The position numbers were made by a program, and so were the translations under genes. 64,000 nucleotides of DNA from Sipunculus nudus (Eukaryota; Annelida; Sipuncula; Golfingiida; Sipunculidae): NCBI GenBank assembly GCA_026874595.1, contig CM049306.1:11803019-11867018 (forward strand). Reading direction: 5' to 3'. Shown piece after piece: positions 11,540-62,622 of the stretch (the first letter of the stretch is position 1; every line of letters begins with the position of its first letter). The notes below the pieces were generated by a model. The model made no database searches. It was not told the DNA's origin and saw only the letters and a program-made list of their open reading frames with translations.

Positions 11540-13874
11540 AGCTCAGCTGACTACAAGTCATCTGAGCTATGGTCATGGTCCATTGTCCGTCGTCCGTCTG
11601 TCTGTCTGTCTGTCCGTCCGTAGATGTAACACATTTTGAAACTGTAATACTTAGGAATCCAAAATTCGGCATAATGTTAGATGTCCCCAAGATCTCCTAC
11701 CAAGCCGAAAACTGGGTCTTTGCGACTTCATTCCTTTGAATAATTAAGGAAAAACCTCAATTTTTTTTTAAAAACCTATTTTCACACTTCAGGACTGCCT
11801 AATATCAAAACCACTCATCTGTTTTTCCTCATATTTGCCATAAATATTCCTCTATATAGTTCCTATGTACATGCCAGAAATTAGGTCTGTATTATATAAT
11901 TTAAAAAAGTTATGGGCTCAAACGTAATGCATTTTGTAAAAAATCAGGAAAGATATTTGATCACTTAACACAAAACATGTTAAAGCTAAGGACTTTTTTT
12001 CCAGTAATATAACTTTAATTAATCAAAATTAAATTGTATACCCAAAATTAGATCAATATCTTTTAAATTTTTAAAAATATTAGCAAAAATAAAAAATTGG
12101 TACCTTAAATTTTGCCCAACTTTGGCCACGGCACTTTTTTTCCTGTAAGTACTGTGGATTTAATTTTCACAGCATGTACACATAAGGATTTAATCTGTTA
12201 AAATCTGAAATTTGAAAATAAAAGCTGCAAAATTAGGCTAGTTATTGAATTTTTTTGGAGGCTCTTGTTGTATTCCCTTACATTGTCAAGCAGTCCACTT
12301 TGGTCACTGTAGGTCATTCAGTGCAGCTCTCTATGCTCCCCAGGCTGTTGGCATAATGTTAGATGTCCCAAAGATCTTCTATCAAGCTGAAACTGGGTCT
12401 TTGTGACTTTGTTCCTTTGAGAAATTAAGGAAAAACCTCAATTTTTTTTATTAAAAACTTATTTTCACACTTCAGGACTGCCTAATATCAAAACCACTCA
12501 TCTGTTTTTCCTCATATTTACCATAAATATTCCTCTATATAGTTCCTATGGACATGCCAGAAATAAGGTCTGTATTATATAATTTGAAAAAGTTATGGGC
12601 TCAAACATAATGCATTTTGTAAAAAATCAGGAAAGATATTTGATCACTTAACACAAAACATGTTAAAGCTAAGGACTTTTTTTCCAGTAATATAACTTTA
12701 ATTAATCAAAATTAAATTGTATACCCAAAATTAGATCAAAATCTTTAAAAAATTTTAAAATAATAGCAAAAATAAAAAATTGGTAACTTAAATTTTACCT
12801 AACTTTGGCCACGGCACGTTTTCTTCCTGTAAGTACTGTGGATTTAATTTTCACAGCATGTGCACATAAGGATTTAATCTGTTAAAATCTGAAAGTTGAA
12901 AATAAAAGCTGCAAAATTAGGCTAGTTATTGAATTTTTTGGAGGCTCTTGTTGTATTCCCTTACATTGTCAAGCAGTCCACTTTGCCCACGGTAGGTCAT
13001 TCAGTGCAGCTCTCTATGCTCCCCAGGCTGTTGGCATAATGTTATGCAATCCCATCACTAGGGCAAGCCCTCTCTCCACTGAGTTGAGCTTGATCAGGCT
13101 GTCTGCAGTTAATACCATACCACATGGAGCCTTTTTCTCCCCCCCCCCCCCCACCCCATTCTTTTGACAGACCTGTACTATGAACTAGATGAATCTTAAA
13201 ATTAACATTTTTTTCAGCAACGAGCAGTAACAACGGAGACCCCTCCCCCACCCACCCCTTCAATATTTAATACACAGGACTAATAAACAAGACGAATCTT
13301 ATAATTTTAATGTTAAATAATTTTTTTTTATGATACTTGGATAATTTTGATTTTTTTTTAAGAAAAAAATTTCAGGAATTTAATCCTAATATTCAAATGT
13401 GATAAAATATTAGGATCTAATTTAAGTGCTAACAGACAAGTTTTAAGAAGATATAAATACTTTGTAGCATATCATTCATATCTCTCAAAGTTGGCAGGGC
13501 CTAGGTGTGAATAACACTGTTACCTTAGTATTAAAATTAGGAATATTGGTCAAACTTTGTGGGATTAATTTTTAACTCATATGGCCATATATTTAACTTT
13601 TGAAAACTTAATTACCTTCACACATTATTTGTTTATGAAATGTTACTTTTATATAACAATTACCATAGGCCTATTTGTTACCTTGGTGCATCACTAAATG
13701 GTTTAGCTCATGTCCATTATTCTATAATTTACAGAGTTTCATTTTAGCAGGGCCATTTTCTCATAGCTTTTCTAATGAGAATTTACATGAAAAACCAAAA
13801 GAAATAAAAATATTTTGCAGTTACTAATATTTTCCAAAATTCAGCTGAGCGATGTGACCCATGGGTCCCTTGTT
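11540..13874 (+). repeat. Family A element, full length with internal duplication
   Basis: The 5' end has a hairpin: arm AGCTCAGCTGACT, short loop, arm AGTCATCTGAGCT (loop ACA here), followed by a GTCCGTC/GTCTGTC stretch. The 3' end has CAGCTGAGC (an inverted copy of the 5' GCTCAGCTG), the palindrome TGACCCATGGGTC and the tail CCTTGTT. The core holds two direct copies of a 682-bp unit (11668-12349 and 12350-13032); each begins GGCATAATGTTA. The copy at 53309 has only one unit. No protein is encoded. The layout resembles non-autonomous Helentron (HINE) elements; this is inference. Confidence 0.8.
11668..13032 (+). repeat. Two 682-bp direct repeats inside family A
   Basis: The stretch starting GGCATAATGTTAGATGTCCC at 11668 restarts at 12350 with near-identical sequence, including the TTGGTACCTTAAATTTTGCC-like segment and the 'caagcagtccactttg' segment. 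A third start at 13033 enters the unique 3' part. Identity looks high by eye, so the duplication is recent relative to the other copies. Confidence 0.85.
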
Positions 13875-13931
13875 TTAATATCCACATGTTTATAATGTGC
13901 TGGCTTCAATAGTGACCTTTCATGACAGCAA

Positions 13932-14345
13932 ATGACAAACAAAACACGCTTCCACACAACATATCCCATCATGCATATCGAAAGTGAAGGTAATATTTTC
14001 AACTTGTGTAAACTTTTTACAACAATAACTCGTGTAACAAACAAGAAACGAATCGATTCCAACTTTAATATCAGTACCCAGCGAGTGCCATTTTCGATGT
14101 ACAAACTGATGTTAGACATAGGCTGTAACGAAATGCCCCCTTATATAAATACCAGCCGCTCAGGCTCCATTAGACGAACAACTAAATACTACCGCCATCA
14201 TTTTAACTTTGTAAACCGCGATTTTTCTTATCTAAAATTCTATTCAAATTGTGATCACCTATATTTAGTAATTAGAAATATTTTACAAATAAGTGGCGAC
14301 ATTGAATTAAACCCTGGCCCAAAAAACAAAACGTTGGACATCTAA
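13932..14345 (+). pseudogene. N-terminal segment with 2A-like motif, CR1-like element
   Basis: This open frame of 137 codons starts at ATG and ends at a single TAA, beyond which the same frame continues directly into the endonuclease domain (HINIRSILNK). The frame is basic and has no domain I recognise until its end, where SGDIELNPGP at 14292-14321 is a full match to the D-x-E-x-N-P-G-P 2A consensus. In some CR1-like and trypanosome retrotransposons such a motif near the N-terminus of the polyprotein causes ribosomes to skip one peptide bond (published family knowledge). Function here is inferred only from the motif. The TAA between motif and endonuclease would stop translation unless it is a late mutation. 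Confidence 0.7.
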
Positions 14346-15070
14346 CATATTAATATCCGCAGCATTTTAAATAAGATAGAAGATGTAGAAATCGAAATAC
14401 AAAATTTTGACATTGTCTGCTTTACAGAGACCCACTTAGACAGTACAGTTCCAAATGAAAAAATACTAAAACCTGGTTATCAGGTGCCCGAAAGGCTTAG
14501 ACAGATCGAGACATGGAGGTGGCATAGGAGTATATATTAAGAATACCCTAGCTTATAAAAGAAAACATGATCTTGAATCAAAATATATTGAATCAATATG
14601 TGTAGAAATAATGAACCAGCCATCCAAATTTGTATGTACCACAGTTTACAAACCTCTAAATCAACCTGTAGAAAGCTGGGAAAATCTTAAAGAATTTCTC
14701 TTTGATTTGAATTCTCTGCCAAACACAAGGCATACAGTTGTTGGCGACCTTAACTGCGATCTGATGGTGACATCACCAACCCCCAAACTTAGAACCATAC
14801 TGAAAGAGTTAGATCTTCACCAACATATGTCAACCTACCAGACTAACAAACAATACGGCAACCCTCCTGGACATGGCTATTACAAATTTTGATGAATATA
14901 CAATTCAATCAGGAACCTTCCCTAAGAATTACAGCGACCATTGTGCAATATTTATAAAGATAAACTGGTTCACAAATAGTCACTTACAATCAAAACCCTT
15001 CAAAGTTTGGAAATACAAAAATGGTAATTATGAGGAAATGAGACTTAGAAATGTAAACTTAGAAATGTAA
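14346..15070 (+). pseudogene. Endonuclease domain of CR1-like element, frameshifted
   Basis: The domain is read by moving between frames. It starts with NIRSILNK, then FTETHLD at 14421-14441 (the catalytic Glu motif of exonuclease-endonuclease-phosphatase folds), then HGGGIGVYIKN after a frameshift near 14490, GDLNCD at 14753-14770 (usual form GDFN) and SDHCAI at 14933-14950 (the conserved SDH motif). These are the landmarks of the target-nicking endonuclease of CR1-type elements. A second shift falls near 14850-14890. A short duplicated stretch around 15045-15075 (ttagaaatgtaaact twice) adds a stop. The active site is intact in pieces, but no continuous protein could be made. Confidence 0.8.
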
Positions 15071-16523: not shown

Positions 16524-16526
16524 TAG

Positions 16527-23487: not shown

Positions 23488-23492
23488 ATATG

Positions 23493-25345: not shown

Positions 25346-25837
25346 TTAGCGAACCTGTGAGCTTATGCGATGGTGCGTCGTCGTCCGTCCTGCGTCGTCT
25401 GTATGTTAACCATAGCTATCTCAAAAACGGCAGAAGCTCGCATCACTAAATTTTTGCAAATAATCAGTCATCTGAAAAACACTATCAGATTTTGTTAATT
25501 TTTTTTCTAACTGCATTTTCTTAGATATAATAGGGAAAAAGCAAAAAAAAGCTTTAAAAATCTTCTTCTTCAAAACTGTCTAGCCAAATTGTCCAATATT
25601 TAACAGAAATGATCCCTGGAACAATCTTTTTCAAGTTTGTTCAAATGGTTCCAGTTCGGAGATTTTTGGCTGAGTTACAGGAGGTTGAACTTAGTCATCT
25701 GTCCAAAAAAGCACACTAAAATTAAAATCTCAGAAACAGCTAGAGCTATAATCACCAAATTTTATACCACTGTTTGTCACATGTGTCATATCTGAAATTG
25801 AGGTATTGGTGGCGCCACCTACATTGATGTGTTTTTT

Positions 25838-28800
25838 AGCTCAGCTGACTATAAGTCATCTGAGCTATAGTCGTGGTCCGTCGTCCGTCCGGATGTCCGT
25901 CCGTAAGACTGGCATGTTTCGACACCATTGGACCTACAACCTGAAATTTGCCATACAGTTAGATGTCCCACAAATCTCCTACCATGCCGAAAATTGGGTC
26001 AATAGGACTTCGTTCCTTCGAGATATTAAGGAAAAACCTCAATTTTTATTAGAAATCTATTTTCACACTTCAGGACTGCCTAATATCAAAACCACTCATC
26101 TTTTTTTTTTTAAATATTTTTTTGTTGGAGGTAACCGCCTCCATTTTTTTTAATGCTAGCTTAACTAATTATATGTACATCTGCAGATTTCCATTTCCGT
26201 TTCGGACTACGTGACAGGGCAGTATAACACGCTTCCTCTCATTTGATATACTGGCGTTAACCAGGCCCAGTGACTACTGCACCTGCAGGCCCTGGGTTGG
26301 TAATCATACCACCGAGGACCCCCGAAAGGCGCACTCGTTTGTGAGTGAAACAAGGCCGTTGGGCACGACCTTCCCATTAAGCCTGCAGAGCGCTCACCCT
26401 GGGTGGGGGCCGACCATGAAAAACCTCACCGCCTCGGCTGAGGTTCGAACTCATGATCTCCCGGCTTTTAGTCCTGCGCTCTACCCCTGAGCCACAGAAG
26501 CCGGTTAAACCACTCATCTGGTTTTCTTCATATTTACCATAAATATTTCTCTATATAGTTCCTATGTACAAGCAAGAAATTAAGTCAGTATAATTTAATG
26601 TAAAAAAGTTATGGGCCCAAACATAATGGACTTTGTAAAAAATATAGGAAAGATATTTGGTCACTTAAGACCAAAAGTGTTAAAGGTAGGGACTTTTTTC
26701 AGTAATACAACTTTTATTGATCAAAATTTAATTGTATACCAAAAATTAGATCAAAATCTGTTAAATTTTTTAAAATTATGGCAAAAATATAAAATTGGTA
26801 CCTTAAATTTTGCCCAAGTTTGACCATGGCACGTTTTTTTCCTGTAAGTACTGTGAATTTAATTTTCACAGCATGTTTTTGTTAGCATTTTGTCTGTTAA
26901 CACCAAAAATTTGAAACCAGTTGATCAAAACTGTAGATTTTATTCAAGTTTTCAAGCACCATGTCACATCAAGTTTACATCAAGCTAGTGTTATGCAGTT
27001 TGCTAGAGCTCAGCTGCCCAGCTTCAGCTCTAAGTTCCTTAAATTTAGCATACAGTTAGATGTCTCCATAATCCCCTACCATGCCAAGAATTTTATCACT
27101 AGGACTTAATTCCTTCGAAATATTAATGAAAAACTTCCTTTTTCCATTAAAAACCCGTTGTTACACTCTAAGACTGCCTAATATCAAAACCACTGATGTG
27201 ACTTTGATCATATATAATATACATATTTTTCTATACATTCGCTATGCACATGCCAGAAATGATGTCAGTATTGTGTAATTGTTTTAAGTTATGGGCCCAA
27301 ACATAATGCACTTTTTAAAAAATCAAGAAATATATTTACTCCCTTAACAAGAGGATTGCTGAAGCTAGAGATTTTTGTCAGGGATGTAACATTATTTAAT
27401 CAAGATTCAATTGAATACCAAAAATTAGTTCTGAATTTTTCAAATTTTATAAGTTATTAGTATAAATATAAAATTAGTACCTTAAATGTTGCCCAACTTT
27501 GACCATGGCACATTTGTTTCCTGAGAGCACTGTTGATATAATTTTCATATCATGCACACATAAGGATTTCATCTTTGTAGTTTAGAAAGCTGAAAGAAAT
27601 TGGCCAAATATTGTAGCTTTTATTAATGTTTATATGAGACCATGTCAGACCCAGGCTTAATCCAGCCCCTCTTCAGTCACCTGTATGTTGACCTTGTTGA
27701 CCTTTCATCAGATTATGCATGCTTGAGTGAAGCATACACTGGGGCAGCCAGGCAGCTAATGCCCAGCCACAGTTGATCCAGGTGTCCAACCCAACTCATC
27801 TAGTAGTTGTTTTGAAAAACAACATAACAATAAACAATAAATTAATAATTTTGTATTTTTTTTTTATTACAAATTAGATAAAAATTAATAGAAAAGGAAT
27901 TTGTTAGTTGATGAGTAACAGAAAATTAACTTGCAGTTACTGATGATGTAAGAATCTTGTATGGATGGATAGAATGTCAGTCTCAATGTTATTCCAAATA
28001 ACACCATGCAGTCCCCTATGGTATTTTTCAGTGAAATTTTAATGATAAAAAAATAAATTATATTATTCATTACTAATCATTAGGGATCATATGAAGGAAA
28101 TTAATGATAGTCAAAGATGCAGTTGATAATATTTATCTAGATTCCTACTGTGTCTAGTGTGTAGATTGATGTGAAAGTAGTCCAAAGTGAATATATTACA
28201 TTTATTTTTTTTTAATATAAATAAAAGCCATAAAACCAGGTACTTATGATCATTATTTAAATTTGTGAATTTTGTATATTCTGGATTCTCAACATCTTTG
28301 TTTGGCTAAAACTGAATAAATACTAGACATGATGCGAATGCTTTGCAAATGTAATTGAATACGAATATGAATATGTACTGCACTAAACAATTTTATTGCA
28401 TAAGAATGGGAATTCAGGTAAAAATGAAAGTATTTGAATACCAGTGCAGATACTTTCAAAATGTATTCATGAATGCATTCATGAATATATTCTATAATAT
28501 TATTTCGATGATCATTTCAGTTATATTTTATTTTAAAAAATCATATGATTTTCTTATTATTTTTTTAAATAAAAATTATATTGGCACAATATTTGTTATT
28601 AAATTTTAATAAATAGTTAAACTCTTTTATAATATGTGCTGCTTATAAGTTATATGGCCAAGTCAAAATCTGTGTGACAATAGCACTCCATTTGTTAATA
28701 AAATAAATGAAATCAATCCTCTTCCCTGTCTTCAAAGATACTTTCAAAATCATACATAAGCTAAACACCAACAACTCATAATAAAGCTTATATTTATTAC

Positions 28801-28887
28801 CACACAAAACAAGCATGTGCCTCTTTCCCAAATCATATTTTTTATCATATATAACAGCTGAGTGCTGTGACCCATGGGTCCCTTGTT
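25838..28887 (+). repeat. Family A element nested in family D
   Basis: 5' hairpin arms AGCTCAGCTGACT and AGTCATCTGAGCT with loop ATA, then GTCCGTCGTCCGTCC. The end is CAGCTGAGTGCTGTGACCCA with GGGTCCCTTGTT. It contains the SINE at 26102-26506 and two core units. Family D sequence lies on both sides, so this insertion is younger than the family D copy. Confidence 0.75.
26102..26506 (-). mobile_element. tRNA-derived SINE
   Basis: Read on the minus strand, the head contains TGGCTCAGGGGTAGAGCG (RNA polymerase III A box) and GAGTTCGAACCTC (B box), that is, a tRNA-like head. The body is about 300 bp and the tail is A-rich (T run on the plus strand at 26101-26112). The direct repeat AAACCACTCATCT flanks it at 26089-26101 and 26507-26519, and the interrupted family A sequence resumes exactly. 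The parental tRNA and SINE family were not assigned. Confidence 0.85.
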
Positions 28888-30012: not shown

Positions 30013-31040
30013 TAGCCCTCAGCCCTTAGGCTGATGGGCTATTGTCGTCACCCAAGCTGTCCGTCCATCCGTCCGGCGTCTGTTAACTTTTACCTTGTGA
30101 GCAGGATATCTGGAAAAGGATTCACTGTCAGAATTTTATTTCCTCGGTAAAGATGTATATCGACTAAATCTCAGTCAAGTTTGAAGATGGGTGACCTTGA
30201 CCTATTTTTCTACATTTTAGAGCTGATCATAGAAAAACACTTAGGTGCTTATTACTCAGGAACCTTTTGGTGGATATTCACAATACTTACTATGATCATA
30301 TGGACTGATAGTCTGTACCTGTTTCACAAGTTTGGTGGCGCCACCTACAATTTCTAATTTTTAATGAATTTTTATCGGATTTTTCAACTTTGGGCTTGTG
30401 AGCGGGATATTTCTAAAACGATTCACCGTAGGAATTTTATTTTTTCGGTGAAGATGTATATTGACAAAATCTCGGTCAAGTTCGAAGATGGGTGACCTTG
30501 ACCTATTTTTCAACGTTTTAGAGCTGATTATAGAAAAAACATTTAGAAGCTTATTTCTCAGGAACCATTGGGTGGATTTTCACAATACTTACTATGATCA
30601 TATGGACTGATGGTCTGTAACTGCTGCACAAGTTTGGGGGCGCCACCTACAATTTCTGATTTTTAATGAATTTTTCTTGGATATTTCAACTTTGGCCTTG
30701 TGAGCGGGATATCTCTATAAGGATTCACAATAGGAATTTTATTTCTTTGGTGAAGATGTATATCGACAAAATCTCGGTCAAGTTCGAAGATGGGTGACCT
30801 TGACCTACTTTTCAAGGTCACAGAACTTATAATAGGATAAAACTTAGAAGCTTATTTTTCAGGAAGCCTTTGGTGGATTGTTATAAATCATGGTACATAC
30901 CTCTCCATTTTAAATTTATAACTGAGACATGTACAGATATACATCCATGTTAGAACAGATATTTAGTACTTGTTACTGTTACCACCTTTAAACACTGTTC
31001 TTTTGGCTGAGGGCTTTTGTCAGCTTCTGCTGATATTCTA
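30013..31040 (+). repeat. Family B element, complete
   Basis: 5' hairpin: AGCCCTCAGCC, loop CTTA, GGCTGATGGGCT (one bulged T), then CCGTCCATCCGTCC. The core has about three units of 300 bp, each with GTGAGCGGGATAT, TGGGTGACCTTGACCTA and a (G)GTGGCGCCACC-type palindrome. The 3' end has GGCTGAGGGCT (inverse complement of the 5' start), the small hairpin TCAGC-TTCT-GCTGA and ATTCTAGTT. A near-identical copy lies at 49824-50877. Confidence 0.8.
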
Positions 31041-31522
31041 GTTAAACCTCTCAAGATGCAGTCATCTGTTAACAGGGCACAAATCATAACAACTGTACCT
31101 AAAATCTTCTAACTTGACATCCAGGGAGGTCCATGAAAAGCCTTCTTGTCAACCTGAAATTAGGTCTCTATTATCCATATTCTCAAAGCTATGGGGCTTA
31201 TAAGCACCCCCCCCCCCCCAGAATAATTGAAAATTCAGTACCAAAGCAAGGCACAAATCATAACCATTGGACCTAGAATCTTCTAATTTGACATCCTGAG
31301 AGTTCGTCAAAAGTTCTCCTCAGAAACCTGAAATGGGGTTAATCTGGCATATATTCTCCGCAATACAATCCAAGTTTGAGCACCCCAGAAAAAATGCAAA
31401 ATACATACAAATTGCCAGATTCCTCAGGAACAGCTGGATGGATTGTCATCAAACTTGGTGTGCTTATTGGTCTTGATGAACTTGAGCTAACTTGAGCGTC
31501 ATGACCCATGGGTCACTTGTTG
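31041..31522 (+). repeat. Family A' core unit and 3' end
   Basis: It shows AACAGGGCACAAATCATAAC and the 'gacctagaatcttc' phrase of A', a C tract at 31206-31219, and the 3' end TGAGCGTCATGACCCATGGG with TCACTTGTT. Confidence 0.65.
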
Positions 31523-31578
31523 TATGCATATTGATCATGGAGAGTTTCCTGCAGACTGGTGTCACCAGCTGGATTTTT

Positions 31579-43440: not shown

Positions 43441-44009
43441 GGTTGTATTAGTTTGGTTGTATAAACTATCATTCTATAAGGCCTACCCTACACAGTGTGA
43501 CTTGTTATGGGAAAAGTTGCAGAACATGTTTGTTCTGTGACATATTACTCAACATGAAGAGTCCAGAGACACACACCAAACATGCCCTGCAAAACAATGA
43601 TAAAAACTACATGCACCAAACATAACCTCTAGAATTCCACTGTTATTCTGCCTTGGAACTGCATTTTATCTATATATGTGCATGTGAAGAAAAAATGTGC
43701 CCTTCACACAATATATTCTTTCTGTTTCTCTTAATTATATGGATCTATAAGAAATATTGGCATGGGTAATTTGGAATAGCTACACAACTTCTTCTGAGTT
43801 TGTTGACCAAGCAAAACACATGGCACCCTCCTCAGAAAGAAGATAACATGGCCAATTTTTATATTCTTTGGCTGCTCACTAGGTAGCCATGACAAACACA
43901 CCTTGGAAGATCCTGCTACTTCAGTCGTGACACAAGCCAAATTGAGGATCACACCGCAATACCTGGCTATGCTTTGAAACTGTATCTCCGCATTCAGTCA
44001 ACATTTTTT
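43441..44009. other. No gene seen
   Basis: Unique AT-rich sequence; only a short accidental minus-strand open frame. Confidence 0.4.
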
Positions 44010-44600
44010 AGCTCAGCTGACTGAAAGTCAACTGAGGTATAGGTATGGTGCTTTGTCCATTGTCTGTCTGGCCGTTCGGCCCTCTGTTAGGAGGGAACAA
44101 ATTGTAACTGCTGGACCTAGAAACTTCTTAGTGTACATCTAGGGAGATCAATAAAAAATATCTTTGGAAACCTGAAATTAGGTCAATGTGACCTAAATCC
44201 TCCGAGCTATAGGGCTTATAAATATCCCCCACAATAATTAAAAAAATTGATACAAAAACTCCAGTGTCTTGATAATTAATGCATGGATTGCCTTGTATCT
44301 TGCCTTGAATATTGATCATGACTAGTTTATGCAATCCAGAAAACTGGTGGGGTAATTTTTATGTTTTTTTTTCTGATTTTGAGAATGTCAGATTAGAGTA
44401 ATTATGTCAGGTTCTCAGCTATGGTTTTATCCAGTGTCTTGAAACCCAATGTAATTATTGATTATGATTGGTTTTCTCAGTTCCTGAAGACTGGTGGTGC
44501 CACCTTATTTTTTTATTTTTGATGCATTTTTCCTTTATTTTGAGACTGCTAAATTATATTGATAATATCAAATTTGCAACTTAGGTTTCATCTGTGTCCT
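44010..44600 (+). repeat. Family A' 5' part
   Basis: It starts AGCTCAGCTGACTGAAAGTC with a partly decayed second arm (AACTGAGGT), then GTCTGTCTGGCC. A' units follow, with 'gctggacctagaaacttctta' and a degenerate GGTGGTGCCACC at about 44493. No A-type 3' end before the exon at 44723. Confidence 0.65.
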
Positions 44601-44619
44601 AAAACTTGGTGATGTTTAT

Positions 44620-44700
44620 AAGGGCCCTGCTTGAAAAAGCAGATGCCCTATATTAATCACCCTGTCAGTCCGTCTGTTTGTCTAACTGTGTCCTATGTGT
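44620..44700 (+). repeat. Family H 5'-end hairpin close to a splice acceptor
   Basis: AGGGCCCTGCTT and AAGCAGATGCCCT can pair around GAA(A) with one bulge, and are followed by CACCCTGTCAGTCCGTCTGT, as in the other families. It ends within about 20-80 bases of the exon acceptor at 44722. Confidence 0.5.
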
Positions 44701-44722: not shown

Positions 44723-44957
44723 ATTGCACATGTCTGTATGGGGTATGTGATAACAGTATTAAGGGAAAGGGAACTTGCAAACCCAACACCTGCAAACCAA
44801 ATATTGTGGGCACCAACTGCAACCAGAAGAAGAGTACTTGCTTCAACAAGAGATGCCATGCCCATGCCTACTGTAAAGTCCCCCTGGATTGGCAGATCCC
44901 CCATAGATTAATATCAAGACATCCCAGTCTCTCCTTCATTCTGAAGGGGTGGTCACG
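44723..44957 (+). CDS. Internal exon, EGF-like module of a stabilin-like receptor
   Basis: The exon follows a pyrimidine-rich acceptor ending TTTTCAG and ends at a strong donor, CACG|GTGAGT. The reading frame has the pattern C-x-C-x4-C, then GKGTC, then a paired C-x4-C segment with VGTNC, then CFNKRCHAHAYC. This spacing is typical of the EGF/laminin-EGF-like clusters between fasciclin domains of stabilins, which are large type I scavenger receptors of animal cells; that assignment is family knowledge plus inference. The exon begins with the last two bases of a codon and ends with the first two bases of one, which fits the exon at 52582. After the last Cys there is a stretch of about 30 residues without Cys (from KVPLDW), longer than a usual EGF loop. 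No fasciclin or Link domain is in the window, so another multi-EGF protein is possible. A repeat hairpin lies about 75 bp upstream of the acceptor. Confidence 0.62.
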
Positions 44958-46689: not shown

Positions 46690-47524
46690 TATGCCCCTGC
46701 CACAAAGTGGTTGGGGCATATAGTTTTACCAATGTCCGTCATTCCGTCCTTCCATATTCCGAAATGAAACAGTTTTTTGGACTCTTTTTGCAATGCCTGC
46801 AGATATTGGCCTGATTTTTGGCGTGTGGGCAGTTAATGACCAGTTACAGATCGAGTTCGCGTTTCGTCCTGGTTGACCTATTTTGACTGTATGACGGCTC
46901 CAGAACATAGAAAATTTCAGGAAAAATAGAAATTTTCATGACAAATGCACATGTACGGACTTTTTTTTTTGAATGCTTGCAGATATTGGCCTAATTTTTG
47001 GTGTGTACGTGCATAATGACCACTTAAAGATTGACTTCACTTTTTGTCCAGGTTGACCTACTTTTGACCGTATGATGTCTTCGGAACTTAAATCACATGA
47101 AAAATAGAAATTTTCATGATAAATGCACATGTAAGGACTTTTTTTCGCAATGCCCGCAGATATTGGCCTAATTATTGGTTTGTGGAAGCAAAATGACCAC
47201 TACAGAACGAGTTTGCATTTTGTCCTAGTTGACCTACTTTTGACCGTATGATGGCCCCTGAACTTAGGAAAAATTTCATGAAAAAATATAAATTCTCCCG
47301 ACAAATGCACATGTCTGGACTTTTTTTCACAATGCCTGCAGATATTGGCTAATTTTTTGTGTGTGACAGCAAAATGACCACTTACAGATCAGGTTCGCGT
47401 TTTGTCCTAGTTGACCTACTTTTGACCGTATGACGGCTCCTGACATAGAATATTTTACAAACTTTAACAAATATTTCTAATTTGCTCCAGGCGGGGGCAT
47501 TTGTGACATTTTGACACATCTATT
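46690..47524 (+). repeat. Family C element, four ~180-bp core units
   Basis: 5' hairpin ATGCCCCTGCCAC, loop AAA, GTGGTTGGGGCAT, then GTCCGTCATTCCGTCC. TTGACCTA points at 46873, 47053, 47229 and 47411 give a core unit of about 180 bp. The 3' end has GGCGGGGGCAT (inverted copy of the 5' start), a weak hairpin and ACACATCTA. Confidence 0.75.
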
Positions 47525-48741
47525 TAAATCTTAACTTAATGCAGCTTATGGAAAAAACTAACTTCAATTCTGAATTTGTCATGAACATTTGAGTCCTAAT
47601 CAAAATATGAAGGAGACTATATAATAATTTGATTGGGATATTGGCAGCCACCTTGTGATGCAGTAAATTTACTATAAGACCAATGAAATATTAAACATTC
47701 TCTTTTTAGAAGAGCCAAATTTTTAGCTCATTCTGCACCAAAGTACGGGCATCTAGATCTGTCAGGGTAGATCAAATACATTTGATACATCTGTCCCCTT
47801 TGTTGGCTTCTTCATCAGTGTGAACTTGATGTGATGCTTTCCCTGAAATTTCTATGTATATCATCCATGGAGGAAACTGATGTTGTCAATTATATTGTTA
47901 TCAAACATACATATTTAGCTTACTTTTACATATTTTCATGTCATTTTCATGTCCACGTTAGACTCTATTTCTATGTTCACCCATTACAGTAGTAATACAA
48001 TATTTTATGAATTTCTTTTATAAGTATATAAATAAAAATAACTGCATAAAAGAAAATTAATTTGTAAAGAGATAATAAATAAAAATTACACATAGTATTT
48101 AGCATGTAACTGACATTATATGGAACATCTGCAGAAAATCTTATACTTGTAAAAAGCAATTTTTCCACTTTTGTCCTCAGTGTTACCTGAAACCACATAG
48201 TGTATGGCACTGTGTTATACCTCATTTTAAAGGTTATTGTTCTTGCAGTGACCTCGCTTATATGAGAATCAATAATTTTTAATGTACACATCATTTTTAG
48301 TGGGATTTCATGGTTTTAAAATTGTGTGGAGGCTACCACCAAAAACAGCTGAACTGCCTTTGGCAAAGACTTAAATGCACCATGCCTGGTTGGTGTTCTA
48401 CATGATAAATGCAGCATGTGACATAATCTCAGGATTAAGGTTTATTGTGCATATGAATACCCCTGCTGTGGGTGACGGATTTAAGCATGTTTGGCCTGAC
48501 ATTTGACCCATTGCAGTCACTGGCCCACTTGTATGGTCAGTCAGTGTGAGAAACATGTGACTCTCAATTAGGGTTAATTAATTATATTATAACCTATATA
48601 ATTAATACATAGTTGGTTTACCTGCTTCAGCTCTGGTTTGGCTCGATCTTCAAATTTGGCGCACATGTCATTGAAGCATTCTCATAGAGCAAGTTTGTTT
48701 TCTTTTGAGTGACTATTTTAGCTGCATATTCAATACTTTTA

Positions 48742-49335: not shown

Positions 49336-51560
49336 TAAGCAAACTTGTGAGCTTATGCGATGGTGTGGTGTCATCCTCCATCCAGCGTCTGTACTTTAAC
49401 CCGTACTACTATACTGTCTAAAAAAAATGGCTGGAACTAGCATCACTAAATTTTATGCAAAATATGTGTCATCTAAAAAAACTTTCAGATTGAGCATATG
49501 TTTTGACTATCTGCATTGACTTAGATTTGAAAGGGAAAAGCTAAAAAAACCTTTTAAAATCATCTCAGAAACTGTCCAGCCAAATTTTTAATATTTCACA
49601 GAAATAATCCAAGAAACAACCTCTCTCAAGTTTGTTCAAATAGGTCCAGTTCAGTGATTTTTGGCAGAGTTACAGAAAGCTGAACTTAGTCATTTGGTCA
49701 AAAAGTATACTAAAGTTACAATCTCAGAAATGGCTGGAGCTATCATCACCAAATTTTATGCAAATTTTGGTTACATGAGCCATACTTGAAACTTGAGGTA
49801 GTGGTGGCACCACCTGCTTTTTTAGCCCTCCGCCCTTAGGCTGATGGGCTATTGTCGTCACCCAAGCTGTCCGTCCGTTCGTCCCTCTGTCTGTCCATCC
49901 GTCCGTACGGCGTCCGTTAACTTTTACCTTGTGAGCGGGATATCTGGAAAAGGATTCACCGTCAGAATTTTATTTCCTCGGTACAGATGTATATCGACAA
50001 AATCTCGGTCAAGTTCGAAGATGGGTGACCTTGACCTATTTTTCTACATTTTAGAGCTGATTATAGAAAAACACTTAGATGCTTATTACTCAGGAACTAT
50101 TTGGTGGTTTTTCACAAAACTTACTATGGTTATTTGGACTGATAGTCTGTACCTGCTACACAAGTTTGGTGGCGCCACCTACAATTTCTGATTTTTTATG
50201 AATTTTTATCAGATTTTTCAACTTTGGGCTTGTGAGTGGGATATCTCTAAAAGGATTCACCGTAGGAATTTTATTTTTATGGTAAAGATGTATATTGACA
50301 AAATCTCGGTCAAGTTTGAATATGGGTGACCTTGACCTATTTTTCTACGTTTCAGAGCTGATTATAGAAAAAACATTTAGAAGCTTATTTCTCAGGAACC
50401 ATTGGATGGATTTTCACAATACTTACTTTGATCATAAGGACTGATGGTCTGTAACTGCTGCACAAGTTTGGGGGCACCACCTACAATTTCTGATTTTTAA
50501 TGAATTTTTCTTGGATTTTTCAACTTTGGCCTTGTGAGCGAGATATCCCTAAAAGGATTCACAATAGGAATTTTATTTCTTTGGTGAAGATGTATATCGA
50601 CAAAATCTCGTTCAAGTTTGAAGATGGGTGACCTTGACCTACTTTTCAAGGTCACAGAGCTTTTAATAGAATAAAACTTAGAAGCTTATTTTTCAGGAAG
50701 CATTTGGTGGATTAATTATGAATCATGGTACATACCTCTCCAGTTTAAATTTATAACTGAGACATGTACAGATATACATCCATGTGAGAACAGATATTGA
50801 GTACTTGTTACTGTTACCACCTTTAAACACTGTTCTTTTGGCTGAGGGCTTTTGTCAGATTCTGCTGATATTCTAGTTGTATGTGTTTCATCAATCATCA
50901 GCAAATTAACCCATAATTTCTCAGGTGAAGCAGGAGTTGGCATCCCAAAATTTAATGCAAAATAGTCACATGTCAAATGTTTTGGGATCGAGCTTTTTGT
51001 GGTGCCACCTGCATCGCCTTATATTTTATGGGGAATAAGCTGGGAAACCTGTGAAAATCTTCTTCTCAGAAATCATTCAGCCAAATTATTCAGTATTTCA
51101 CAGGAATGATTCCAGAGATGAGCTCTCTCAAGTTTGTTCAAATGGTTTTGGTTTGGCTGATTTACAGGAATTTGAACTTAGTCATTTTGCCAAATAAGCA
51201 TACTGACATAACAATCTTATAAACAACAGGAGCTAACAATACCACGTCTTGTGCAAATGTTGGTCACATGACTCGTGTTTGAAATTGAGTTTTTTTGTGG
51301 CACCACTGACATTGACCTGATTTTACAGGCAAAAACCTTGTAATTTTAGCCTCTTTCAGCTTCTACTTTATAATGTTTTTGATGAAACTGTCAAACCAAA
51401 TAGTTTAATATTTCACATGGATCATCCATGGGTAGGGTTATCTCAGTTGAATAAGAATAGATAAAGTTCATTGCTTTTTGGTTGAGTCATAAAAAGCTGA
51501 AGTTAATCTTATGTTCAAGATCTTATCTGACAAGATTGAGATTTATGATGATGCAATGTA
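49336..51560 (+). repeat. Family D element interrupted by family B
   Basis: It begins AGCAAACTTGTGAGCTTATG, runs to about 49820, and resumes after 50877 with 'aatttctcaggtgaagcagg...ttggcatccc', matching 7520-7600. Its own 3' end was not found. Confidence 0.65.
49824..50877 (+). repeat. Family B element, complete, nested in family D
   Basis: The same hairpin, 300-bp units and ATTCTAGTT end as the copy at 30013-31040, with very high similarity along its length. GGTGGCGCCACC lies at 50168. Confidence 0.8.
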
Positions 51561-52693: not shown

Positions 52694-53308
52694 GTAGAGC
52701 AGTAATAGAACACAACATAGAAATAGTCCAGAGCTGATATGTCAGATGATCATGACCAGAATATGAGCATCTGTCTAACAACGAGATGAATATATTGAAA
52801 AGTGTATGAAATAATAAAAAAGTTGAGTAAATTGAGTTTATTGTATGCTGGCTCACTGTATACCAGCAAGCTGTCATATTTAATTGTAGAATATATGGTG
52901 ATATGTTGTGACTTATGAGTCTCAGGATAACCTTTTCCTATTGAAATGCAATAATGTAATAACTGTATATTGATTGTTTTTTTTTTTATAATTTATTATT
53001 CCACATCTGTGTTAAATTAGCAACCTAGCCTGATTAAAATTAGGCCAACACTCTTGTTGTCTGGTTTCAGTGGGAAATTTAAGTTCACATCGGTCATAAT
53101 AAAAAGCCAGACTGACCCATGCACTCCTCCTTGATCAAGGTTTTTTAGTCCTTTGTAAAGCATCATCATACTACATGACTACATATTCACAGACCTTGAT
53201 TCTGTGACCTTCTCGGGTATCACTATTTCAGGAATAATGAATAAGGCAATTGAACCAATCAGATGACATGCAAACACTTGTTTCATGTGGATGACTGGTG
53301 TGATTTTT
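52694..53308. other. Intron sequence, no gene seen
   Basis: AT-rich DNA following the EGF exon donor, before a family A element. Confidence 0.4.
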
Positions 53309-54915
53309 AGCTCAGCTGACTATAAGTCATCTGAGCTATAGTGGTGGTTCATTGTCCGTCATCCGTCTGTCTGTCCGTCGGTCCGTCCATCCGGATGTCT
53401 GTCTGTAAGACTGGCACGTTTCGACACCATTGGACCTATGAATCTGAAATTCGGCATACAGTTAGATGTCCCCAAAATCTCCTACCATGCTAAAAATAGG
53501 ACTTTGTTCCTTCGAGATATTAAGGAAAAACCTCAATTTTTTATTAGAAATCTATTTTCACACTTCAGGACTGCCTAATATCAAAACCACTCATCTGGTT
53601 TTCTTCATATTTACCATAAATATTCCTCTATATAGTTCCTATGTACATGCCAGAAATTAAGTCAGTATTATTTAATTTAAAAAAGTTATGGGCCCAAACA
53701 TAATGGACTTTGTAAAAAAATCAGAAAAGATATTTGATTGCTTAACACAAAACATGTTAAAGCTAAGGACTTTTTTCTGGTAATATAACTTTAATTAATC
53801 AAAATTAAATTGTATACCGAAAATTAGATCAGAATCTTTAAAATTTATTAAAATACTAGCAAAAATAAAAATTTGTACCTTAAATTTTGCCCAACTTTGG
53901 CCAAGGCACGTTTTTTTCCTGTAAGTACTGTGGATTTAATTTTCACAGCATGTACACATAAGGATTTAATCTGTTAACATCTGAAATTTGAAAATAAAAG
54001 CTGCAAAATTAGGCTAGTAATTGAATTTATTTTGGGGCTCTTGTTGTATTTCCTTACATTGTCAAGCCGTCCACTTTGGTGACTGTAGGTCATTCAGTGC
54101 AGCTCTCTCCACTGAGTTGAGCTTGATTAGGCTGTCTGCAGTTAATACCATACCACAGGGTGCCTTTTTCTCTGGCAACCCCCCCCCCCCCCCCCCCCCC
54201 CTCACCATTCTGTTGACAGACCTGTACTATGAACTAGATGAATCTTAAAATTAACATTTTTTTCAGCAACGAGCAGTATTAATGGAGACCCCTCCCCCCA
54301 CCCACCCCTTCAATCCACAGGACTAATAAACAAGATGAATCTTATAATTTTAATGTTAAATAAATTCTTTTTGATGAGACTTGGACAATTTTGATTGTTT
54401 TTAAGAAAAAAATTTCAGGAATTTAATCCTAATATTCAAATGTGATAAAATATTAGGATCTAATGTAAGTGCTTACTGACAAGATTTAAGAAGATATAAA
54501 TACCTTGTAGCATTTCATTCATATCTCTTAAAGTTGGCGGGGCCTAGGTGTGAATAACACTGTTAACTTAGTATTAAAATTAGGAATATTGGTCAAACTT
54601 TATGTGATTAATTTTTAACTCAAATGGCCATATATTTAACTTTTGAAAACTTAATTACCTTAACACATTATTTGTTTATGAAATGTTACTTTTAAATAAC
54701 ACTTACAATAGGCCTATTTGTTCCATTGGTGCATCACTAAATGGTTTAGCTCATGTCCATTATTCTATAATTTTACAGTTTCATTTTAGCAGGGCCATTT
54801 TCTCATAGCTTTTCTAATGATAATATAGATGAAAAACCAAAAGAAATAAAAATATTTTGCAGTTACTAATATTTTCCAAAATTCAGCTGAGCGATGTGAC
54901 CCATGGATCCCTTGT
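53309..54915 (+). repeat. Family A element, single core unit
   Basis: The 5' hairpin with loop ATA and a long GTCCGTC/GTCTGTC tract are followed by one core unit, a C run of about 22 (54179-54200), and the same 3' region as 13190-13874, ending CAGCTGAGCGATGTGACCCA and CCCTTGTTTT. Confidence 0.8.
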
Positions 54916-55094
54916 TTTATTCAACATAAAGCATTGCCGGGAGGGCATTGAAAATCAAACCAATCTGATCAGGTGGTCCCATTTCTGGTACATGTGTTGT
55001 TGTTTAGAGGCCTTGTGATCAGTGTGTTGCTTGCATTCTATTGGTTGGTTTTGAATGATGTCAGTTGAGATTTTGGCCAAAACTCAAGAGAGGG

Positions 55095-55265: not shown

Positions 55266-55373
55266 ATATTTCTGAATAATGCTTGTTTGCATATTTCTGA
55301 CAGTTGTATAATTTCACATGTTTTGTTTTTACCAGTAAATTAAAGAAAATTTCCCTTGCACTGAATATTTTTT

Positions 55374-55430
55374 TAGCTCACCAGAACCAAGTTCAGGAGA
55401 GCTTTAATACTGTTACCCTGTCTGTGTTCA
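55374..55430 (+). repeat. Family F 5'-end hairpin
   Basis: Arms AGCTCACCAGAAC and GTTCAGGAGAGCT pair at 11 of 13 positions around loop CAA, then 'taatactgttaccctgtctg' follows. The body and 3' end were not resolved. Confidence 0.55.
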
Positions 55431-56394
55431 TCAATCATATGGGTGTTCTAGGGGTTATGGGAAAGCATTTCCCATGATTTTGAAATCAAAAGTTCAGATA
55501 TTATGGTCTTTTAAGTTCTCTTAAGTCTATAACTGTTGAATACCTATTGTATTCATATTTGTCCCTTGCCATTGCCAAAGGCGCCATCAGCTAGGGACAT
55601 AGAAATCGGGGGCATCCATCCGTCTTTCCATTCGTTTGTCCATCACAGGACATACTTGTTCCTGAAGGAATAAGGATAAAATAATTTTCATGTAGGCTCA
55701 TTGCTCCATTACTGGTGAAGATATTTCTGTGTAACTTGTTGTAATGACCAGTTGTGAGAGTAGCCAGATACTTGTTCACTGCACAAGGTTAAGTTTTATT
55801 GCTGTCCACTGTTTTGTGTCCTGTATATCCAATATATCTGACAGGATTTAAATATTTTTTTCTGGATAATATGACATCTTTGCATGTTCATACATAATCG
55901 TTTTGGATCGATTATGTGAAAATGCAACCAATTAATTGATTATGAAAGAAAACAACCAATCACATATATAAAGTCAGTTAATTACCACACCACTCATATG
56001 GCCTGATTAATTCTGCTGGATGTAATTTGTTTTCTTCTCCACACTGATTCCATGAAAGCTATTTAAGTCTTTGTTAAATTTGGAACCATGAAGAGACTTT
56101 TATAAGAGATGTCCCTCTGGTGTGTGTGGTGTATTTGTTTTCAACCTTGACCCAAGGATGGACAAAGAAATAAAATGCTTGATGCCTTATCCATAGCACT
56201 CCTCCCTGAAGTCAGTGCACATATATTTTAAAATTCTGAATAAAAAATGTTACAAGGAGTGCGCAAAGTGACACATGGGTACAGATTGTTTGGAATGACA
56301 CAATTTGAATTTAAAAAAAAATGTTTATGCTTATTCTGTAAAACCTGGTGTGACAGAACAGGAAGTGTGATAAACTCCAAGGAACAGCATTTTT
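55431..56394. other. No gene seen
   Basis: Possible family F body at the start, otherwise unassigned AT-rich DNA. Confidence 0.4.
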
Positions 56395-59392
56395 AGCTGA
56401 GCTGACTGAAAGTCATCTGAGCTATAGCGATCACCCTTTGTCTGTCGTCTGTCTGGCCTTCTGTCCGTCCATTAACAGGGCACAAATCATAACCGCTGGA
56501 CCTGGAATCCTCTCACTTGACATCCAGGGAGGTCCATGAAAAAAATCTCCTTGGAAACCTGAAATTAGGTCTCTGTTACCCATATCCTTTGAGCTATGGG
56601 GCTCAAAAGTACCCCCAGAATAATGCAAAATTTGATACAAAAGCTCAAGTATCTGAATATCTTCTGCATTGATCACCATGATTCTGTGCATGAATATAGA
56701 TCATGGGATGTTCCATCAGTTCCTGCAAACTGGTGGTGCCACCTGTATTTTTTTCCAATTTTTATGAATTTTGTTATGCCCCTGCCACAAAGTGGCCGGG
56801 GCATATAGTTTTACCCATATCCGTCCTTCTGTCATTCCGAAATCAAACAGTTGTACTGACTTTTTTCGCAAAGCCTGCAGATATTGGCCTGATTTTTGGT
56901 GTGTGGGCAGATAATGACCAGTTACAGTTCGAGTTCGCGTTTTGTCCCGGTTGACCTACTTTTAACCGTTTTACGGCTTCTAAACTTAGAAAATTTCATG
57001 AAAAATAGAAATATTCATGACAGATACACATGTACAGACTTTTTTTCGTAATGCCTGCAGATATTGGCCTGATTTTTGGTGTGTGGGCAGATATAGACCA
57101 TTTACAGATCGAGTTCGCATTTCGTCCTGGTTGACCTACTTTTGACTGTTTTACAGCTCCTGAACATAGAAAATTTCATAAAAAATATGTAATTTTATGA
57201 CAAATACACATGTACGCATTTTTTTTCGCAATGCCTGCAGATATTGCCCTGATTTTTGGTGTGTGGGCAGATAATGACCAGTTACAGATCGAGTTCACGT
57301 TTTGTCCCAGTTGACCTACTTTTGACCATTTGACGGTGCTCTAACATAGAAAATTTCATAAAAAAGTGCACATGTATGGACTTTTTTTCGCAGTGCCTGA
57401 TGATACGGGCCTGATTTTTGGTGTGTAGGCAGATAATGACCAGTTACAGATCGAGTTCTTGTTTTGTCCCAGTTGACCTACTTTTGACCATTTCACTGCT
57501 CCTGAACATAGAAAGTTTCATGAAAAATAGAAATTTTCATAACAAATGCATATGTACATATGTACGCGTTTCGTCCCAGTTGACCTACTTTTGATTGTTT
57601 TACGGCTCCTAAACATAGAAAATTTCATGAAAGACAGAAATTTTTATGGAAAATACACATGTATGGACTTTTTTTCACAATGCCTGTATATACTAGCATG
57701 ATTTTTGGTGTGTTGCTTGATAATGACCCGTTACAGATCGAGTTTGCATTTTGCCCTTGTTGACCTACTTTTGACCATACGACACCTCCTGAAATTAAAA
57801 AATTTTTCAAAATTTTACAAATGTTTCTAATTTGCCCCAGGCGGGGGCATTCTTGTCGTTCCGACACATCTAGTTTTTCTCTATTTTTGAGACTTTTAAA
57901 AATGAGGACATCTGTTAACAGGGCACAAATCGTAAAGACTGGACCTAGAATCTTAATTCTTGACATTCTGAGAGACCTATGAAAAGTCTCCATGGAAACC
58001 AGAAATTAGGTCTCTGTTACCCATATCCTTTGAGCTATGGGGCCCCTAAGTACCCCCCCCCCCAGAATAGTGAAAAATTTCTTACAAAAACTTCAATATC
58101 TCATTAACTACATCACTGATGGTCATGATTTTTGGCATACATATTGATCATGAGATGTTTCATCAGTTTCTGCGACTGGTGGCGCCACCTGTATTTTTTT
58201 ATTTTTTTACGAACTGTTTTCTCTATTTTTGAGACGTTTAAAAATGTGAACATCTGTTAACAGGGCACAAATCAAAAAGACTGATTCTAGAATCTTCATT
58301 TTTGACATTCTGAGAGATCTATGAAAAGCCTCCATGGAAACCAGAAATTAGGTCTCTGTTACCCATATCCTTTGAGCTATGTGGCCCCAAAGTACCCCCC
58401 AGAACAGTCAAAAATTTCATAAAAAAACTTCAATATCTGATTAACTACATAACTGATGGTCATGATTTTTGGCATACATATTGATCATGAGATGTTTCAT
58501 CAGTTTCTGCAGACTGGTGGCGCCATCTGTATTTTTTCAAATTTTTACAATTTTTTATCCCTATTTTTGATACCTTTTAGGATGTAGTTATCTGTCAACA
58601 GGGTTCAAATTGTAACGACTGGACCTAGAATCTTCATGCTTGACACACAGGAAGACCCATGAAAAGACTCCATGGAAACCTGGAATTAGGTCTCTGCTAC
58701 CCATATCCTTTGAGCTATGGCACTCCAAAATACAGCTCAGAATAATGGAAAATTTGATACAAAAGCTGAAGTATCTGAACAACTAATGCAGAGATCACCA
58801 TAATTGTTTGCATGGATATTGTTCATGGAGTGTTTCATCAGTTTCTGCAGACTGGGTGCGCCACCTCTATTTTTTTCCAAATTTTTCACAAATTTTTTTC
58901 TCTATTTTTGAGACCTTTAAAGATGTGGTTATCTTTTAACAGGGTACAAATTGTAACCACTGGACCTAGAATCTTCATTCTTGTCATGCAAGGGACCCAT
59001 GAAAAGTGTCTGTGGAAACCTGAAATTAGGTCTCTGTTACCCATATCCTCCAAGCTATAGGACTCCAAAGTATCCCTTAGAATAATGGTAATTTGATACA
59101 AAAGCTGAAGTATCTGAACAACTAATCCAGAGACCACCATGCTTCTTTGCATGGATAATGACCATTAAGTGTTTTTATTAGTTTCTGCAGACTGGTGGAT
59201 CCACCTGTATTTTTTTTTTTAATTTTTTTATTAATTTTTTTAGATATATTTATACAGACACAATCTCAGCCTGTTTGTTAATCTGTTTGATGCTTCAGGT
59301 GAATGGGTATATACTACCATTCAGATGATAAAATTTCCTTTTACTAATCTCTTTCCAGTCAGCTGAGCGTCATGACCCATGGGTCACTTGTT
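56395..59392 (+). repeat. Family A' element with five ~340-bp units
   Basis: Start AGCTGAGCTGACTGAAAGTC and ATCTGAGCT, then GTCTGTCGTCTGTC. 'aacagggcacaaat' points at 56477, 57917, 58260, 58599 and 58937 give a 340-bp unit once the family C insertion is removed. Units carry GGTGGCGCCACC (58178) and GGTGGCGCCATC (58516). The end is CAGCTGAGCGTCATGACCCA and GGGTCACTTGTT. Confidence 0.78.
56774..57873 (+). repeat. Family C element nested in A', six core units
   Basis: 5' hairpin ATGCCCCTGCCAC, AAA, GTGGCCGGGGCAT. TTGACCTACTTTT points are at 56951, 57131, 57311, 57473, 57580 and 57760 (180-bp unit, one shortened). The end is GGCGGGGGCATTCTTGTCGT and GACACATCTAG. The flanks 'ttttatgaatttt' and 'tttttctctatttttgag' are contiguous in other A' units, so the target was a T run. 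Confidence 0.8.
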
Positions 59393-60710: not shown

Positions 60711-61450
60711 CTTGTGTTGTAGACATCACTCTCCAGCCATTAGCCACAGAGAATAATGCCATTTTCTCTAAAAGTAATCCAGCTGCCATTCAGGGATAAC
60801 CTGATTAAAAGGAGAACACATTACTGCAGCTTAGCCTATTGTTACTTCTCCATTATTTGTTAAATGGGCCGTTAATTGTAGAGAAAGGCTGAGAATATTT
60901 GTTTTCACACCAGTTAGAGACAGAAACACTGTGTATCATCACAATAGACAGTCACTTTTGTTGAGATTTATTGATAGTTGCAGCTGGCACTTCTGGCAGA
61001 CAAAGCCACACAAGAGTGAGTTTTATTGGTTTCAGTAGTTGTCATTTTAGATATATGATAGGAAGGGACTAGAGATGGTTTGATTCTAGATTACTGTAAC
61101 ATTAAGTCTGTCTGAAGCTTGAGATTGACGTGTGCTCTTTGGGACAAGCGAAGCTGTCTTTGTTAACCCTGTGTCCCCTGTGATGTCAGTCTTCATACAG
61201 AGTCTGACTGGGAGACAATGAAATGCTTTCTTGGCCTGAGGAGAGAATTAGTGGTATGAGACAAATGATTCAGGCTGTGTAAACTTCCTTGTTGAAGATT
61301 ATTCATTTCATGCAGTTGTGATAGAAGGAACAAATAATAACTAAATTATGAAGTCAGTCTTCTGACCCGAACCACATAGATGTATAGTGAAATTTTGCTA
61401 ACCCAACTGCCTGTGGGACCAGCCAAAGTGGGATGGCTGGTGAGCCTGAA
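60711..61450. other. No gene seen
   Basis: Unassigned sequence without recognised exons. Confidence 0.4.
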
Positions 61451-61451
61451 T

Positions 61452-62622
61452 TTTAATGCCCCCGCCACAAAGTGTACATGTACAGACTTTTTTTGCAGTG
61501 CCTGCAGAAACTGGTCTGATTTTTGGTGTGTGGGCAGATAATGACCAATTACAGATCGAGTTCGTGTTTTGTCCGAGTTGACCTATTTTTGTCTGTTTGA
61601 CTGCTCCTGAACATAGAAAATTTCATGAAAAATAGAAATTTTCATAACAAATGCATATGTACAGATTTTTATTTGCAGATACCACCCTGAATTTTTTATG
61701 TCTGGGCAGATAATGACCAGTTACAGATCGAGTTCGCGTTCCGTCCCGGTTGACCTACTTTTGACTGTTTTACGGCTCCTAAACATAGAAAATTCATGAA
61801 AAATAGAAATTTTCATGAGAAACGTACATGTACAGCCTTTTTTAGCCCTCAGCTCATAGGCTGATGGGCTATTGTCATCACCCAAGCTGTCCATCTGTCT
61901 GTCCGTCCGTCTGGTGTTCATTTGATGTCTGTTTTATTTTCACCTTGGTTTGCATTTTTAGTGAAACTGTGAGCTTATACAATTGTGTGGCGTCGTCCAT
62001 CTTCCGTTGTCCATTGTGCGTCATAGCTATCTCAAAAAGGGCAGGAGTTAGCATCACCATATTTTTTTGCAAAAAAATTGTCATCTAAAAAATTCTATTG
62101 GATTTTGCTTATTTCTTTGCTAACTGCATTTTCTTAGATTTTAAAGGGAAGAAGCTAAAAAACATTAAAAAATTTTCTTCACTGAACCCATGCTGCCAAA
62201 TTGTCCGTTCATCTCGCCCAATAATCCTCCCTGGTAAAAAGAACATATCTGGAATATCCTGACTGATACATCCTAGTTATAAAATGTCCTAATCCGAAAC
62301 TTGCAGGTCCGAAATGTCCATTTTGCTGAAATCATAATGACTAAGGTAGATATGTAGGACATAAGAGGATCAATATTAGATTTTAAAAATAAACCTCCAT
62401 TCATACTCCCAAACTTTGCACAGGTTCGCATTAGGCTTGTAGGCCTTGTTGGTGTGTTACTTGATAATGACCCATTACAGATCAAGTTTGCATTTTGCCC
62501 TCGTTGACCGACTTTTGACCATATGACAGCTCCTGAACTTAAACATTTTTACAAAATTTAACAAATATTTCATATTTGCTCCAGGCGGGGGCATTTGTGT
62601 CGTTCTGACACATCTAGTTTAA
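61452..62622 (+). repeat. Family C element split by B and D fragments
   Basis: A shortened 5' end (ATGCCCCCGCCACAAAGTG) and core units run to about 61840. After 62450 the core resumes ('ggtgtgttacttgataatgacc', as at 57713) and ends GGCGGGGGCATTTGTGTCGT, GACACATCTAGTTT. The insert is a family B 5' piece (61842-61960) and a family D piece (61962-62450) ending AGGCTTGTAGGCCTTGTT. Confidence 0.7.

Follow-up and report, generated by a model that had tools for sequence, protein, structure and literature searches.

Orientation of putative Helentron-type elements relative to host genes in the genome of Sipunculus nudus

In the genome of the sipunculan worm Sipunculus nudus (assembly GCA_026874595.1), a stretch of 64,000 nt (CM049306.1:11,803,019-11,867,018; hereafter the window, whose own positions are used below) carries several repeat families with hairpin ends. 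Judged from their sequence, these families are almost certainly HINEs, that is, non-autonomous elements of the Helitron2/Helentron type. The HINE sequence detected in the window with a library of these elements amounts to 21,806 bp on the + strand and 0 on the - strand, and the sole host exon identified there is also on +. The hairpins themselves are an already-known end structure of Helentron-type elements, found here in additional families; the orientation of the elements, and not their hairpin design, is the unexpected and most surprising feature. In introns of genes of known strand, HINEs lie predominantly in the sense direction, which suggests that transcription steers either their insertion or the survival of their copies.

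Elements and terminal structures in the window

The elements mapped in the window are listed in Table 1. A preliminary description of this DNA had reported that families A, C and F each begin with 13-bp arms around a 3-base loop built from different bases, and these hairpins are present where it placed them: A-type hairpins at 11540, 25838, 31579 and 53309 (0-1 mismatch) and at 56395 (3 mismatches), C hairpins at 56776 and 46691, and the F hairpin at 55375, with 0 matches to any of the three in 100 shuffles each. When the design was searched for irrespective of its letters (13-bp arms, 3-base loop, up to 2 mispairs), the window yielded 12 sites and its five first-order Markov shuffles 0-3. The A and C hairpins adopt the same predicted fold, consisting of seven pairs, a 1x1 mismatch, five pairs and a 3-base loop, built from unrelated letters, with predicted energies of -15.4 and -21.1 kcal/mol, respectively. 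The F hairpin folds more weakly (-11.1 kcal/mol) and has two mispairs; F has a single copy in the window, which does not show it to be a repeat family. The unpaired C/T at hairpin positions 8 and 22 is common to the unrelated A and C; it is kept in 84 of 100 A variants among the matches listed, and is absent from one C copy (L003).

Table 1. Elements and host exon mapped in the window.
Feature	Positions	Strand	Details
Family A HINE, copy 1 (A1)	11535..13874	+	T-tract, 5' hairpin 11540-11568, GTCC tract, 3' partner, palindrome, CTTGTT
Family A HINE, copy 2 (A2)	25833..28887	+	tRNA-like short interspersed nuclear element (SINE) inserted at ~26121-26504, - strand
Family J HINE	30014..31043	+	own hairpin, 302-bp tandem repeats, partner at 31005, palindrome, CTAGTT
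Family A HINE, copy 3 (A3)	31574..33207	+	
A/B-like 5' module	44005..44660	+	hairpin 44010-44038 (two mispairs)
Host gene exon, stabilin-like EGF domain	44723..44957	+	PF24887, E 2.1e-10; flanked by cag and gtgagt
Family C HINE, copy 2	46691..47525	+	hairpin 46691-46719
Family J HINE, copy 2	49800..50878	+	302-bp repeats, 3' partner at 50840, CTAGTT
Family A HINE, copy 4 (A4)	53304..54916	+	
F 5' module	55370..55480	+	two-mispair hairpin 55375-55403, single copy in window
Family B HINE	56390..59392	+	hairpin 56395-56423, 338-bp tandem repeats 57874-59216, palindrome 59374, CTTGTT
Family C HINE inside B	56774..57875	+	hairpin 56776-56804, ~180-bp tandem repeats, GGGGCAT, TGTCG-TTC-CGACA, CTAGTT
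C-type element, 3' end	62446..62619	+	partner at 62584, terminal CTAGTT

The remaining anatomy had also been described correctly for A and C: the start of the 5' arm reappears inverted near the 3' end, next to a second hairpin and a CTTGTT or CTAGTT tail, and GTCC tracts can be read near the 5' ends of the elements. In A1 the 3' partner is TCAGCTGAGC at 13841 and the palindrome GACCCATGGGTC at 13856, while in C the partner GGGGCAT (3' of 57840) accompanies the palindrome TGTCG-TTC-CGACA. The same inverted end pair, palindrome and tail were seen in an additional family, J, whose hairpin, AGCCCTCAGCC-CTTA-GGCTGATGGGCT, has one bulged base; its 3' inverted partner, GGCTGAGGGCT at 31005, is exact over 11 bp and is accompanied by the palindrome TCAGC-TTCT-GCTGA and a CTAGTT end. 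Internal tandem repeats have units of ~180 bp in C, 302 bp in J and 338 bp in B. Insertion sites are T-rich: of 22 A copies sampled, 19 have five or more T ahead of the hairpin. The C element that splits the B element is the sole nested insertion read at both ends, and T-tracts there hide any target-site duplication.

Other features of the window include an array at 39280-43422 in which a 33-34-bp unit, AGGTAGAATTACCTGGAGGCTGTGAGGTAGTGA, is repeated ~127 times, lying ~1.3 kb upstream of the exon with the stabilin-like domain; a GC-rich stretch at 48770-49090, within otherwise AT-rich DNA, with repeated CGTTTGCC/GGCAAACG inverted pairs; and a degraded non-LTR retrotransposon (long interspersed nuclear element, LINE) on the + strand at 13926-16917, with endonuclease and reverse-transcriptase pieces.

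Genome-wide copies, Helentron frames and the conservation of shape

A search of the genome (1.43 Gb, 153 contigs) returned 33,327 copies of the A hairpin (up to 2 mismatches), 4,002 of C (up to 2) and 3,316 of J (up to 3), with 0 for each reversed-pattern control. Family B was tracked by its 3' end (7,241 exact matches, reversed-pattern control 0), because the exact B hairpin matched just 24 places. There were also 143 genome matches to the Helitron Rep family, several of them within long open frames. The two frames inspected (L042, 2237 aa; L043, at least 2151 aa and still open at the edge of the fetched sequence) combine an OTU domain, Rep, a PIF1 helicase and a C-terminal endonuclease, which is the Helentron arrangement. 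The assignment to the Helentron type made in the preliminary description is thus upheld, both by the end anatomy, which fits the published Helitron2/HINE design, and by these Rep-helicase-endonuclease frames in the same genome. An autonomous Rep/helicase element sharing the ends of A, B, C or J, for which a search had been proposed, was not found in the stretches fetched; the L042 and L043 sequences contain no hairpin with 11-bp arms and no library match, and are candidate Helentron partners for the genome in general. Helentron copies on C8, C11, C4 and C13 were compared and those on C8 and C4 extended, and similarity and tandem repeats continued past the compared stretches, so that the ends were not reached. 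In the copies on C11 and C13 (L045, L049), the Helentron coding start contains many tandem 69-bp units, whose number varies between copies.

That shape can be shared while sequence differs is a point already made in the Helitron2 paper, the available text of which describes compensatory changes between two related elements (PMC3627910). The preliminary description had read the same pattern here as selection for structure. The shared fold of A and C bears out the first part of that claim; selection for structure found little support from compensation in the arms. In a search with the outer arms fixed and base 7 not G, there were 423 matches, of which 100 were listed, nearly all of them decayed A copies; pairing between positions 7 and 23 was present in seven of the 100 listed, and four of the 45 listed hairpins that have A7 also have T23. 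Such little rescue of pairing is the pattern expected of decaying dead copies, so selection acting on the source elements is neither proved nor excluded by it.

Orientation in introns and along contig 1

Strand orientation is not remarked on in the preliminary description. Introns were defined as the sequence between exons of one gene, the gene being inferred from ordered matches on one strand. The sample comprised 34 pieces (215,100 bp) from 30 genes of known strand, encoding myosin-head and kinesin proteins and chosen for length, and two long frames, lying on the strand given in the search listing, confirmed the strand of the fetched pieces. HINEs were counted with a library lacking the SINE, and matches below 60 bp were dropped; besides SINE-only matches, this removed three short sense matches (two in L015, one in L004) and one short antisense match (L007). 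An earlier count of 16,559 bp sense and 5,151 bp antisense was superseded, as the library then contained the SINE inside A2.

Across these introns, 28 HINE clusters are sense and three antisense (p 5e-6). The myosin-head introns (17 pieces, 13 genes) hold 12 sense and two antisense clusters, and the kinesin introns, an independent follow-up set, hold 16 and one (14:0 in 14 pieces from 14 genes, and 2:1 in three more genes). Counted by gene, 16 are mostly sense, two mostly antisense and 12 without HINEs. The first 31 pieces contain 31,940 bp of sense and 4,126 bp of antisense HINE sequence, and all 12 ends of listed families found in them (five A, two C, four J and one B) are sense, with none antisense. 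Ends recognized independently of the library gave five sense and no antisense 5' ends, and four sense and two antisense 3' ends, one of the latter outside known HINEs. When introns were oriented to their genes, HINE matches between different genes ran in the same direction in 404 instances and in opposite directions in 139, and, within the first 31 pieces, every one of the opposite matches has a partner in the two pieces where antisense clusters occur. On this evidence, the sense bias of HINEs can be regarded with high confidence as real in this genome. The sole antisense cluster of the kinesin set belongs to an inverted pair: in L069 (C12:42573001-42577500, positions 1905-4500 of the piece), sense and antisense B-type stretches abut at 3418-3420.

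One explanation for a bias of this kind is selection: insertion would occur both ways, and antisense copies would be lost through harm to the transcript, caused by poly(A) hexamers, purine-rich enhancer-like words or G-rich non-template DNA. Orientation-dependent harm by intronic human L1 has been described, in the available text of one study (PMC10030826), and some of the element content points the same way, since the antisense strand is richer in enhancer-like words in five of six elements counted and clearly richer in poly(A) hexamers in three of six (sense:antisense 4:12 in A3, 0:5 in J and 0:4 in B). The hexamers are, however, near-equal in A1 (10:10), A4 (8:9) and C (1:0), and these families are still sense-biased. 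Moreover, HINE ends are not depleted in introns, where 12 were found against 6.8 expected at the genome mean (P ~0.04). Selection is possible as the cause, and we hold it to be somewhat doubtful.

Another explanation is insertion itself. Target tracts are not in excess on the coding strand (TTTTT 915, AAAAA 935), and it is because of this, together with the 12 intron ends, that insertion into the non-template strand is favoured over selection. The intronic controls are few: three SINE matches, all sense, in two genes; no LINE match by blastn or by tblastn with the window LINE; and one weak retroelement domain (zf-RVT in L059, antisense) among the 10 intron frames, out of 116, that were scanned with Pfam. 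LINE and SINE controls were for this reason taken from contig 1 (C1).

The analyses of neighbours on contig 1 use the matches listed, which include 100 A copies, and neighbour pairs are not fully independent. The listed A copies form long single-strand runs. Consecutive copies 1-50 kb apart share a strand in 68 of 75 listed cases, as do 26 of 31 listed pairs of B-type ends. Where the nearest neighbours up to 30 kb apart belong to different HINE families, the strands match in 33 of 35 pairs, no pair being counted twice. For LINE motifs and SINEs, the strand is that of the closest HINE in 6/11 cases within 30 kb and in 17/29 within 100 kb, the latter being the distance at which J plus C agree in 22/30 and B in 36/44. 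A bias common to unrelated families and not seen in the same way in retroelements likewise favours the insertion reading. Neighbour agreement of ~0.9 would also leave few randomly oriented intergenic copies, which selection could produce only if nearly the whole genome were transcribed.

In the densest block, C1:96420-1053329 (~0.96 Mb), the - strand carries all 11 B-type ends and 42 of the 43 A copies listed. The first 0.41 Mb of the block contains 32 exact A copies, against a genome mean of one (up to 2 mismatches) per 43 kb. Strand domains of this size raise the possibility that replication sets the orientation. In the manner of IS200/IS605 elements, whose orientation records replication (available text of PMC5371812), HINEs would enter the lagging-strand template at forks, and gene agreement would arise through co-orientation of genes and forks. 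From human data, fork-driven insertion would be expected to give a looser link to gene strand. In the introns sampled, gene strand predicted element strand in 28 of 31 clusters, and on contig 1 strand agreement decays across 100-300 kb, a gene-like scale; replication is therefore an unlikely cause.

Single-strand runs could also consist of tandem or segmental copies of one insertion. Tandem repeats are common inside the elements, and three pairs of A hairpins lie only 232-258 bp apart. The flanks of 22 A copies sampled in the block are, in contrast, unrelated except for two pairs, so the A copies there are mostly separate insertions; one of the related pairs shares its insertion point within another A element, and strand agreement spans unrelated families and different genes. 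Local duplication is largely refuted for the sampled copies, and as a general account of the runs it is very improbable. In L026 (C1:190852-191400) and L029 (C1:223381-223950), two A elements lie at apparently one T-tract inside another A element, with flanks 85% alike over 100 bp; together with C1:455490/455728, these make up the close pairs of A hairpins mentioned above.

A possible link to transcription and comparison with known systems

The mechanism that would account for these observations combines Helentron-type transposition with the exposure of DNA by transcription. HINEs would be moved in trans, through rolling-circle transposition, by the Rep, helicase and endonuclease proteins of Helentrons, the recognized feature probably being the shape of the 5' hairpin together with the 3' inverted partner and the palindrome. 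The element would travel as a single strand and join T-rich single-stranded DNA. Genes transcribed in the germline may expose their non-template strand in transcription bubbles or R-loops, and an element joined to that strand would end with its own strand in the coding strand. We infer that insertion into the non-template strand causes the sense bias at what amounts to an even chance. The broader proposition that Helentron-type transposition is strand-locked to transcription, and that HINE direction preserves a fossil trace of germline transcription, is offered tentatively and a shade below that.

Several observations weigh against these propositions. The evidence comes from one genome and two gene families, antisense copies occur in three of the 18 HINE-bearing genes, and the intronic excess depends on 12 ends and on introns selected by length. 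On contig 1, the listed A positions are dominated by one block, and the difference at 100 kb between retroelements (17/29) and J plus C (22/30) is not significant (p 0.28). A-copy agreement drops as local density rises (0.98, 0.90, 0.86), and somewhat lower agreement at higher density is a point in favour of selection. Furthermore, non-HINE repeats common to introns also agree in direction (28 gene pairs same, seven opposite; by match, 50 same and eight opposite), so that part of the effect may exceed HINEs or reflect unlisted HINE families.

To our knowledge, it is an open question which DNA serves Helitrons and Helentrons as a target in living cells, and whether it is exposed by replication or by transcription. 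A near-absolute sense bias would point to single strands exposed by transcription, and would allow the question to be tested wherever a HINE-rich genome has been annotated. If the bias is insertional, HINE direction could mark germline transcription in unannotated genomes; if it is selective, it would represent an unusually strong orientation-dependent purging of intronic elements.

No report of a sense bias of Helitrons or Helentrons was found in the open-access literature searched. In a study of rice, none of the intronic element families showed a strong bias in orientation, and the word 'helitrons' is absent from its main text (PMC7145194). Silkworm Helitrons are found in introns more often than expected, with orientation not treated in the text available (PMC3789558), and in the corresponding text of a wheat Helitron paper orientation serves for read pairing only (PMC13286980).

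The end structures have close counterparts. The Helitron2 group, in the available portion of its description (PMC3627910), shares the placement of the 5' asymmetric terminal inverted repeat within a 5' hairpin, the 3' partner upstream of a 3' hairpin, a T at the 5' end and insertion beside T-tracts; the family sequences differ, and gene orientation is not mentioned in that portion. HINE, DINE-1 and Helentron elements, as far as the text of PMC4067079 was available, share subterminal inverted repeats (palindromic in mite families), a 3' stem-loop, a T-rich target, a microsatellite and Rep/helicase/endonuclease partners; they differ in that no sense bias is mentioned, 'bias' having 0 occurrences in the main text. 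The Pacific oyster Cg_HINE elements (available text of PMC7492417) share a GTCC-type microsatellite after the 5' inverted repeats, satellite-like core tandem repeats, a 3' palindrome and the occurrence of several unrelated families. For the oyster, the elements are noted to integrate in either orientation of the assembly, and some genes to have insertions in their non-coding parts; orientation relative to genes is not treated in that text. The closest parallel to the orientation comes from an unrelated element class and is one of analogy only: the bacterial IS200/IS605 elements, in the text available (PMC5371812), share a single-stranded intermediate, hairpin ends and an orientation that records a strand-exposing process, which is replication there, whereas transcription is the correlate here. 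Should the strand-lock to transcription prove true, HINEs would be an animal counterpart of IS200/IS605 elements, whose orientation records replication.

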